A DNA stretch of 64,000 nt, from contig NZ_AP023239.1 of NCBI RefSeq assembly GCF_013393385.1, positions 4,402,001-4,466,000 on the forward strand. Direction: 5' to 3'. Below, one piece after another: positions 51,012-53,535 of the stretch. This DNA comes from Paenibacillus sp. URB8-2. Its GTDB lineage: Bacteria > Bacillota > Bacilli > Paenibacillales > Paenibacillaceae. The translations under genes were made by a program, and so were the position numbers. The notes below the pieces were generated by a model, which worked only from the letters and a program-made list of their open reading frames with translations, was not told the origin of the DNA and did not search any database. Each line of letters begins with the position of its first letter. Positions within the stretch are counted from its first letter, which is position 1.

Positions 51012-52349
51012 TTATCCCAGCGGCGTGCGGGCCAGCAGTCTTTGAATCGACCGGTCCGCTTCGCGCAGCACCGTGTCTTTATCGACCGTCTTCAGTATGC
51101 CTCTGTCCATCAAGATTTTGCCGTTAATAATCGTGGTCTCCACATCCGCGCGCGTAGCGGAATACACAATCCGGGAGATCGGGTCCACATCAAAGGAAGG
51201 GAACGTATGGAAATTATACAGGTTCAGGATTGCCAGGTCCGCTTTCTTGCCGACCTCGATGCTGCCGATTTCATTTTCCATCCCGACCGCCTTGGCTCCT
51301 CCGATCGTCGCCATCCGGAACACGGATTTAGCGTCCATTGCCGTCGGTCCGTGCAGCGGCTTTTGGATCAGCGCGGCCAGCCGCATTTCATTGAACATAT
51401 CGAGGTTGTTGTTGCACGGGGCGCCGTCCGCGCCAAGGCTTACCGAGACATGCTCGTGAATCAGCCCCGGCGTGTCGGCGATGCCGGACGACAGCTTCAG
51501 ATTGGAGCCAGGACAATGGCTGACATGCACGCCCCGTTCCCGCAAAATGCGCCGCTCTTCCTCATCCAGCCAAATACAGTGGGCGAGAATGAGCCGCTCG
51601 TTCGCCAGTCCAATATGATCCAGATAGACGATGTTGCGCATGCCGGTCATTGCCTGCACGATCTCGATCTCCCCCTGATTCTCGGAAGCATGGGTGTGCA
51701 CCTTAACCCCATAACGGGCGGAAAGGTCGCGCACTTCCGTCAGCAGCGGCTCGGTACAGGAAATCACGAACCTCGGGGAAAAAGCGTACCGGATTCGCCC
51801 GCCGTCATATCCGTTCCATTTCTCCAGCAGATCCACGCTCTCCTGAAGCGAAGCCGCCGTATCCTCCTGAAGCGCCTCGGGCACATCCCCGCCCTTCTGG
51901 TCCATCATGACCTTGCCTGAGAGGGCGCGGATACCGCTCTTCGCGATGGCCTGGAAGGCGTAATCCGCGTGATGCACCGTCTCCATATCGACAATCGTCG
52001 TCGTCCCGCTGGAGATCAGTTCCCCGATGCCGAGCATCGCGGAGTAGTAGAGCGACTCCCCGTCGTGCGCCGCTTCGAGCGGCCATATACGCTTGCGCAG
52101 CCAATCCATCAGCTCCAGATCGTCCGCCTTGCCCCGAAAGAGCGTCTGGCACAAATGGATATGCGTCTGCACAAAGCCCGGAATGACGGTCCGTCCCGTG
52201 GCGTCGATCACCGTTTCTCCCTCAAGCGGCGCAAGGCCGCTGCCGATTTCCGCAATCAGGTCGTCCTTGATCCGGATGTCGCCGCGCAGGATTTCCTCCC
52301 GCTTGTTCATCGTGATGAGTTCCGCATTTTTTATCAGTATACCGCCCAT
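51012..52349 (-). CDS. Amidohydrolase, adenosine-derivative/guanine-type deaminase (MtaD/DadD-like)
   Basis: 445-residue metal-dependent deaminase: P-G-F-V-Q-T-H-I-H-L-C-Q-T (metal His pair near 65), V-H-T-H-A-S-E, L-A-H-C-I-W-L and the metal Asp in G-A-D-G-A-P-C-N-N-N. Family members deaminate 5'-deoxyadenosine, methylthioadenosine, S-adenosylhomocysteine, guanine or 8-oxoguanine. Sequence alone favours the 5'-deoxyadenosine/MTA/SAH group. However a guanine-type riboswitch lies directly upstream, which would suit a guanine-linked substrate. Start ATG with GGGGGAGAG upstream. Single-gene unit with its own terminator. Confidence 0.82.
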   Translation of the reverse strand: MGGILIKNAELITMNKREEILRGDIRIKDDLIAEIGSGLAPLEGETVIDATGRTVIPGFVQTHIHLCQTLFRGKADDLELMDWLRKRIWPLEAAHDGESLYYSAMLGIGELISSGTTTIVDMETVHHADYAFQAIAKSGIRALSGKVMMDQKGGDVPEALQEDTAASLQESVDLLEKWNGYDGGRIRYAFSPRFVISCTEPLLTEVRDLSARYGVKVHTHASENQGEIEIVQAMTGMRNIVYLDHIGLANERLILAHCIWLDEEERRILRERGVHVSHCPGSNLKLSSGIADTPGLIHEHVSVSLGADGAPCNNNLDMFNEMRLAALIQKPLHGPTAMDAKSVFRMATIGGAKAVGMENEIGSIEVGKKADLAILNLYNFHTFPSFDVDPISRIVYSATRADVETTIINGKILMDRGILKTVDKDTVLREADRSIQRLLARTPLG

Positions 52350-52384
52350 GATTCTCTCCCCCTAAATTAAGTAAAAATAAAAGC

Positions 52385-52482
52385 AAAAAGGCCACAAAAA
52401 CATGCCGGGGCATATTTTCGTAGCCAGAAATTTACGGTTTCCGGTAGAGACCCTTAATCCGATCATTAAGGATATACGAAAA
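52385..52482 (-). promoter_or_regulatory. Purine (guanine-type, C74) riboswitch with overlapping terminator
   Basis: Read on the minus strand: P1 TTTTCGTA/TACGAAAA (52482-52475 and 52422-52415); P2 CCTTAAT/ATTAAGG with loop GATCGGA; the core GTCTCTACC; P3 with loop ACCGTAA; and CTGGC before P1. These match the xpt-family aptamer. The base before P1 is C (complement of 52423), as in guanine sensors; adenine sensors have U. A terminator pairs GGCTACGAAAA (52425-52415) with TTTTTGTGGCC (52400-52390) plus ATGC/GCAT inside and a T run after. It uses the 3' strand of P1, so ligand binding should block termination (ON switch). It lies 36 bases before the deaminase gene. Confidence 0.85.
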
Positions 52483-52659
52483 GATCAAATTTTTATGAAT
52501 TAACTTCATCTTAATTCAGAGACAGATTCTTTGTCAATAGAAGTAAATAAAGTTTACATATCAAACATAACCGACACAGAGATGCTATAAAATTGACTAT
52601 TCATCCCGGCGTATTAGGTTTAAAATAACAATGATGTCCTTGAAAAGGAGTGTATACCA

Positions 52660-53535
52660 TTGACAAAAATCGCATGGATCGGAACAGGGCATATGGGACT
52701 GCCAATGGCCCGCAATCTGATAAAGGCGGGCAACGGCCTGCATGTCTATAATCGGACAGCGGAAAGAGCGCAGCCGCTCGCCAAGGATGGAGCGGTTATT
52801 CGCCGGACGCCGGCCGAAGCCGCCGAGGGAGCAGATTTCATCTTCCTTATGCTGACCAAGGGAGCTTCGGTGAAGGCGATCCTGACCGGGGAAGACGGCG
52901 TTCTGGCGCATCTTAAGCCTAATGCTTATGTTGTGAACATGAGCACGATTGGCCCGGAGGAAGCCAAGGAATTCGCCCGGCTTACCAGCGAAGCCGGAGG
53001 AATTTATGTGGATGCGCCCGTATCCGGCTCGGTCGGCCCTGCGGAGCAAGCGCAGCTGGTCATCCTGGCCGGCGGAGACCGCGATGCGGTTGACGCGTGC
53101 CGGCCTTATTTGGACAAGCTCGGCAAGGCGACTCTTCATTTCGGGGATGTTGGAGCGGGCAGCTCCGCCAAGCTGGCGATCAACCTGCTGCTCGGCGTAA
53201 CCGCGCAGGGCGTAGGCGAGGCTCTGCTGTTTGCGGAGAAGTCCGGACTTGACCGTGAACAGGTGCTTCGGATGATCAGCGAATCGGCTGTATCCACGAA
53301 GCTGTTCGAGGGCAAAAAACCGATGTATGTAAAAGATGAGTACCCTGCTGCCTTCATGATCAGCCTCGTCGCCAAAGATTTGGGGCTGCTTGCTGATGAA
53401 GCCCGCCGCGTCGGCCTTAAGCTTCCGCTGGCCGAAGCCGCCGGAAAAACGTACGCGGACGCGGAACAAAGCGGCAAGGGAGAACTGGATATGGCGGCCG
53501 TGTGGCTGCAATTGAAGGAATCCGGACGCGGCTGA
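52660..53535 (+). CDS. NAD(P)-dependent oxidoreductase, 3-hydroxyisobutyrate dehydrogenase family
   Basis: 291 residues: Rossmann motif I-G-T-G-H-M-G-L-P-M-A (7-17), N-R-T near 31, M-S-T-I-G-P, D-A-P-V-S-G-S-V (substrate-binding block), G-A-G-S-S-A-K-L-A-I-N with the catalytic Lys near 171, and K-D-L-G-L in the C-terminal helical domain. Typical of HIBADH, tartronate semialdehyde reductase and glyoxylate/succinate-semialdehyde reductases. Start TTG with AAAGGAG 10 bases upstream. Monocistronic with a strong terminator; substrate not fixed. A glyoxylate-type reductase would pair with the glycerate kinase gene 14 kb away. Confidence 0.87.
   Translation: MTKIAWIGTGHMGLPMARNLIKAGNGLHVYNRTAERAQPLAKDGAVIRRTPAEAAEGADFIFLMLTKGASVKAILTGEDGVLAHLKPNAYVVNMSTIGPEEAKEFARLTSEAGGIYVDAPVSGSVGPAEQAQLVILAGGDRDAVDACRPYLDKLGKATLHFGDVGAGSSAKLAINLLLGVTAQGVGEALLFAEKSGLDREQVLRMISESAVSTKLFEGKKPMYVKDEYPAAFMISLVAKDLGLLADEARRVGLKLPLAEAAGKTYADAEQSGKGELDMAAVWLQLKESGRG

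Follow-up and report, generated by a model that had tools for sequence, protein, structure and literature searches.

Why would a guanine-type riboswitch stand in front of a gene whose product probably degrades guanine, and in which direction would it switch that gene? The best-known guanine riboswitches turn genes for purine synthesis or import off. The leader that raises this question lies on the minus strand of a 64,000-nt stretch of Paenibacillus sp. URB8-2 DNA, which in its full length is called the window here; window coordinates below refer to the minus strand unless stated otherwise. The first-pass annotation had placed at 52385-52482 a guanine-type riboswitch wired as an ON switch for a purine-type deaminase and had suggested a covariance search with the Rfam purine model. 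We ran this search and obtained a purine riboswitch match at 52499-52401 (RF00167, 68.5 bits vs. a gathering score of 37, E 6.4e-10), with zero non-standard pairs flagged in the alignment. It was the sole Rfam match within the window, even with E <= 0.1. The annotated coordinates fit the positions of the RF00167 aptamer and of the terminator that follows it.

Read off the RF00167 alignment, the guanine-type aptamer extends from P1 to P1 over 52415..52482. It consists of P1 (52482-52475/52422-52415), J1/2 (52474-52472), P2 (52471-52465/52458-52452), J2/3 (52451-52444), P3 (52443-52438/52430-52425) closed by L3 (52437-52431), and J3/1 (52423..52424), formed by G73 and the ligand-pairing C74 at 52423. 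Aptamer nucleotides are given in the xpt numbering. Upstream of the aptamer, a promoter-like TTGACA-18-TAAGAT (52508..52537) is a weak candidate, no better than chance (1 found vs. 1.6 expected in shuffles). Between the terminator and the start codon lies a Shine-Dalgarno-like AGGGGGAG (52356..52363).

By sequence the aptamer is of the guanine-I type, with U22, U47, U51, and C74 and without junction insertions. U22, U51, and C74 are named as guanine contacts in the excerpted text of PMC9295807, where guanine-II and xanthine-II aptamers are marked by junction insertions and xanthine-II also by U51G. The window aptamer carries C74 instead of the U of adenine riboswitches, and U51 without the J2/3 and J3/1 insertions of xanthine-II; the one-base J2/3 insertion of guanine-II, which keeps U51 but has the other xanthine-II-like variations, was not found in its junction either. 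A pattern match over 77 leaders (the window and 76 from the best 80 of 375 relatives of the downstream gene) showed U22, U47, U51, and C74 in 77/77, so that the guanine-type pocket first recognized from the C at the ligand-pairing position holds for the whole set. The neighboring positions were less uniform: nt 24 was U in 48 and A in 29 leaders, nt 48 was C in 74 and U in 3, and nt 73 was G in 75 and A in 2. Since the pocket bases are kept and the marks of guanine-II and xanthine-II are missing, we expect guanine or hypoxanthine as the ligand. G73 was also considered as a specificity change, an idea that we dropped since several further switch groups of the genus have G73 too.

The direction of the switch is suggested by what follows the aptamer. 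Terminator scanning and folding detected an intrinsic terminator hairpin (52390..52425) that shares nt 72-82 with the aptamer. From 52425 to 52390 it comprises 16 pairs and a 4-nt loop, then TTTTTGCTTT; its U-rich tail occupies 52373..52389. This was the one terminator found in 401 scanned bases, vs. 0.2 (sd 0.5) expected from shuffles. The 5′ arm of the hairpin starts at nt 72, the last P3 base, and takes in G73, C74, and the whole P1 3′ strand. As J3/1 and the P1 3′ strand are both contained in this arm, the bound aptamer and the terminator exclude each other. The earlier view that the terminator consumes the P1 3′ strand was correct but understated, because one base of P3 and J3/1, including C74, are taken as well. 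Folded apart, the aptamer stretch gave -19.8 and the terminator stretch -23.0 kcal/mol. When folding was followed in a growing transcript, the aptamer formed once about 85 nt had been made, and from about 110 nt P1 was displaced by the terminator. With the terminator being thermodynamically stronger than the aptamer, the switch must work kinetically.

This arrangement, with the P1 3′ strand inside the terminator 5′ arm, is that of the Bacillus subtilis pbuE adenine riboswitch. As described in the excerpted text of PMC7707468, the pbuE terminator is formed at the expense of P1: its strand invades P1 before moving into J3/1, an exchange that junction-bound ligand prevents, which makes pbuE an ON switch. 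In pbuE the strand exchange continues through P3, and adenine is the ligand, whereas here the exchange ends at the last P3 base and C74 indicates guanine. The leader is best explained as a transcriptional ON switch wired like pbuE, and from its anatomy and conservation we infer both the mechanism and the way in which the gene would respond in cells. The polymerase would first make the guanine-type aptamer. With guanine or hypoxanthine bound, P1 and the junction would be locked and the polymerase would pass the U-tract; with no ligand, the next RNA would invade P1 and then J3/1, the 16-bp terminator with its U-rich tail would form, and the gene would be off.

The conservation of this wiring was followed in the relatives of the downstream gene. 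A genome scan gave 375 confirmed relatives, and among the best 80 of these a purine aptamer lay upstream in 76 (20/20, 17/20, 20/20, and 19/20 in successive batches), in records of genera including Paenibacillus, Niallia, Domibacillus, Metabacillus, Lysinibacillus, and Bacillus. It was absent upstream of the remaining four of the best 80 (L035, L038, L039, and L082), and phage records gave no match. With the window included, the overlapping terminator was found in 76/77 leaders, which bears out the proposed pbuE-like wiring. These terminators start at nt 72 in 71 leaders and at nt 73 in 5, and have 15-21 pairs with a mean energy of -21.7 kcal/mol (range -26.8 to -14.8). Base 72 covaries with its partners in both competing folds, above permutations. 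Among 72 distinct leaders, it forms a standard pair with nt 54 of P3 in 65 (51.6 on average and at most 60 in permutations) and with the terminator 3′ arm in 68 (56.2 on average and at most 63), and pairs properly in both folds in 63. In this set one distinct leader without terminator is left out, the opposing base lies outside the predicted stem in 5 leaders, and the permutation keeps the column make-up, not ancestry. The single exception among the 77 leaders, L026 (2773-2871), has an aptamer without the standard terminator. This leader is from Paenibacillus sp. NFR01 and apparently is the same locus as L193; its start codon is 150 nt away vs. the usual distance of about 80 nt, and a different long hairpin (-42.1 kcal/mol) overlaps P1.

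We also asked how common this wiring is among purine aptamers of the genus, using 108 aptamers from 17 genomes (that of the window and 16 of a set of 61); this set overlaps the 80-locus set (e.g., L026/L193, L033/L171, L025/L159), so that the two are not independent. The genome of the window has six purine aptamers. The gene family of the downstream enzyme, NF005557, is present in 13 of the 17 genomes, with an aptamer before the gene in 13/13. A terminator including the P1 3′ strand was detected before 12/13 NF005557-gene copies, 9/9 8-oxoguanine deaminase genes, and 8/13 genes for an FAD-dependent oxidoreductase, vs. 1/16 for purE, 1/12 for xpt, and 0/15 for NCS2 permease genes; of the other 30 aptamers, L160, L182, and L227 had one as well. 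The guanine-I aptamers before purE, xpt, and permease genes thus share the scaffold and U22, U47, U51, and C74 with the window leader, yet almost none has the overlapping terminator. A looser scan gave 13/13, 9/9, and 13/14 for the first three groups and 1/17, 1/13, and 0/15 for the others, with 8 loci relabelled by hand and the L168 junction mis-registered in both scans. The ON logic had been called uncommon; this is true before purE, xpt, and NCS2 permease genes, while before NF005557, 8-oxoguanine deaminase, and FAD-dependent oxidoreductase genes it is regular. A scan demanding a T-rich run directly at the stem had suggested that ON wiring is confined to the NF005557 gene, which we gave up when looser scans showed it before the other two groups. 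According to the excerpted text of PMC9295807, guanine-I riboswitches in Paenibacillus are predicted to be OFF, whereas guanine-II and xanthine-II of this genus are predicted to be ON, as proposed here, with xanthine-II before purine degradation genes; unlike the window aptamer, both carry junction insertions, and xanthine-II has U51G. Both of these terminator scans flagged 0/8 guanine-II-like and 0/5 xanthine-II-like aptamers, and given the predicted ON direction of these aptamers the scanning must miss some ON designs. The aptamers before the FAD-dependent oxidoreductase are guanine-type and ON-like, and occur in the genome of the window (L006 1501-1600; G000:C1 378943-379042) and in 13 further genomes of the 16; the oxidoreductase shows PF21688 and weak Rossmann-type matches.

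The gene behind the leader (51012..52349, start codon at 52349) encodes a 445-aa amidohydrolase. Family models assign it to NF005557, named 5′-deoxyadenosine deaminase (720.3 bits vs. a cut-off of 522). Guanine deaminase TIGR02967 gave 256.2 vs. a cut-off of 375.4, and other deaminase models, including 8-oxoguanine deaminase NF006055 (291 vs. 532 bits), outscored TIGR02967, with all except NF005557 below their cut-offs. At the same time, the enzyme is the best TIGR02967 match of its own genome (253.5; next 164.2). It is 30% identical to Escherichia coli GuaD and shares 32% identity with the 8-oxoguanine deaminase of its own genome, and thus overall similarity does not decide its function. Clearer indications came from single residues. 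Q68, GKVMMD at 145-150, P192-R193-F194, E223, H257, and D308 were invariant in 81/81 family members (the window and the best 80 of 375), which therefore all hold the residues expected of a guanine deaminase by mechanism, i.e., the catalytic Gln, Glu, His, and Asp together with GKVMMD and PRF. These are the features that the enzyme shares with canonical GuaD (TIGR02967), as distinct from its low identity and sub-threshold score. The catalytic four are given in the excerpted text of PMC13054789, and are present also in related deaminases. GKVMMD and PRF are common to the family and E. coli GuaD, and other residues occupy both places in SsnA, in the own-genome 8-oxoguanine deaminase (L005), and in the paralogues L119, L120, and L122. 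Human guanine deaminase 2uz9 has TPRF at the PRF place; chain 3e0l, which is listed under guanine deaminase as well, differs in this segment, presumably through an engineered specificity change. From the alignment, we take the R of PRF to be the Arg213 discussed in the literature. Guanine binding is tied to Arg213 and Gln87 in the excerpt of PMC3360617. Computation thus yields the family and the signature residues, and these residues point to the substrate: the enzyme probably deaminates guanine to xanthine, which makes its current name doubtful. If so, excess guanine would induce its own deaminase and be removed as xanthine.

We hold with considerable confidence that the leader is a guanine/hypoxanthine-responsive transcriptional ON switch for a probable guanine deaminase. 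The aptamer could instead be a relic, with the hairpin terminating constitutively or regulation being independent of ligand, as might be suspected from the greater stability of the terminator fold and from the loss of the standard terminator form in L026. We give this very little credence, because pocket, overlap, hairpin, and U-rich tail are kept together in 76/77 leaders and base 72 covaries in both folds. Our first suspicion was an 8-oxoguanine riboswitch controlling an 8-oxoguanine deaminase, a reading that would fit the genus, the ON wiring, the deaminase gene downstream, and the 291 bits of the enzyme with the 8-oxoguanine deaminase model. A 2023 paper on the 8-oxoguanine riboswitch reportedly describes the distribution of the class, its gene association, and its ON direction. 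The class is also mentioned in the closing section of PMC9295807, as excerpted. The suspicion was dropped once another aptamer of the same genome, L005 (1501-1598; G000:C1 1772878-1772975), was found before a 470-aa protein that exceeds the 8-oxoguanine deaminase cut-off (597 vs. 532). Close relatives of this protein occur in 10/61 genus genomes. The 9 corresponding aptamers that were read (L005 and eight others) are similar to the window aptamer in scaffold, in the overlapping terminator (9/9), and in preceding a deaminase gene, but all have a shortened J2/3 and A73, whereas the window has a full J2/3 and G73; this type is defined here by our own loci before 8-oxoguanine deaminase genes. The enzymes differ as well: that of the window is far below the cut-off, belongs to another amidohydrolase family, and has PRF where the L005 protein has PCS. 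An 8-oxoguanine switch at this locus is thus very unlikely. L005 itself, with its shortened J2/3 and ON-like terminator before an 8-oxoguanine deaminase gene, probably belongs to the 8-oxoguanine riboswitch class as published.

The substrate leaves somewhat more room for doubt. The switch may sense guanine while the enzyme acts on something else, either 5′-deoxyadenosine, as the name of the clearly passed NF005557 model implies, or a modified guanine, since the relatives of guanine deaminase have recently turned out to include N2,N2-dimethylguanine hydrolases (PMC13054789, as excerpted). We consider this unlikely in view of the guanine-contact segments, which are invariant in the 81 family members and differ in the MTA/SAH-like paralogues of the same genome (L120 and L122). 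A possible precedent may also argue against the family name. According to the excerpted text of PMC8360030, a rice amidohydrolase resembling SAH deaminases and chlorohydrolase is a guanine deaminase, inactive on 5′-deoxyadenosine, MTA, and SAH and with some activity on 2′-deoxyadenosine. The boldest version, in which ligand and substrate would both be a modified guanine, e.g., N2-methylated guanine from RNA turnover, instead of guanine, is distinctly improbable.

The preferred assignment to guanine is in line with the distribution of the two enzyme families. Over 61 genus genomes, two of them only 71-72% complete, NF005557 exceeded its cut-off in 44 and canonical GuaD in 20; 37 had NF005557 only, 13 GuaD only, 7 both, and 4 neither (Fisher p = 1.5e-5, uncorrected for ancestry). 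The NF005557 enzyme thus tends to replace canonical GuaD in this set; the 7 genomes with both families (of the 44 with NF005557) and the 4 with neither count against the guanine assignment. Together with the signature residues, this complementarity supports the annotated purine-type catabolic deaminase and narrows it to a probable guanine deaminase. We think it likely that NF005557 is a second, riboswitch-induced bacterial guanine deaminase family that carries the wrong name in databases and takes the place of GuaD in much of Paenibacillus. One of the 44 matches, G016:C1 4459482-4460801, is the sole one with an in-frame stop codon. For the product xanthine, the genome of the window holds xanthine dehydrogenase genes (pucD-like over the cut-off, pucC-like below). 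It also encodes a 155-aa CDA-type deaminase, and as the top TIGR02967 match is below the cut-off, another enzyme, such as this deaminase, could be the guanine deaminase. The divergent neighbor of the leader (52660-53535, plus strand) is of a 3-hydroxyisobutyrate dehydrogenase-like family (PF03446, PF14833); no NCBIfam model exceeded its cut-off for this protein, and no purine link was seen.

The RNA class and the ON logic are already known. What is new is that they are combined with a probable guanine deaminase, that this combination is so broad, and that the enzyme family may carry the wrong name. Searches of open-licence papers did not turn up a guanine riboswitch-guanine deaminase pairing, and the excerpted texts of PMC2258182 and PMC11477304 do not describe it. 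In several Bacillales genera, the same sensor appears to be wired the opposite way before a probable catabolic gene, which offers a testable functional reassignment of a family now called 5′-deoxyadenosine deaminase and, potentially, a natural guanine-inducible ON part. Within one genome, a single scaffold serves guanine switches without overlapping terminator, the present putative ON switch, and an 8-oxoguanine-type ON switch. Further variation may exist in the genus. Three Paenibacillus genomes contain low-scoring purine aptamers (L226, L227, and L228; 37-40 bits) with guanine-like junctions, an enlarged P2/L2, and an altered L3 without the usual CCGUAAA, which possibly form a variant class; the gene next to L228 encodes a transporter-like membrane protein.
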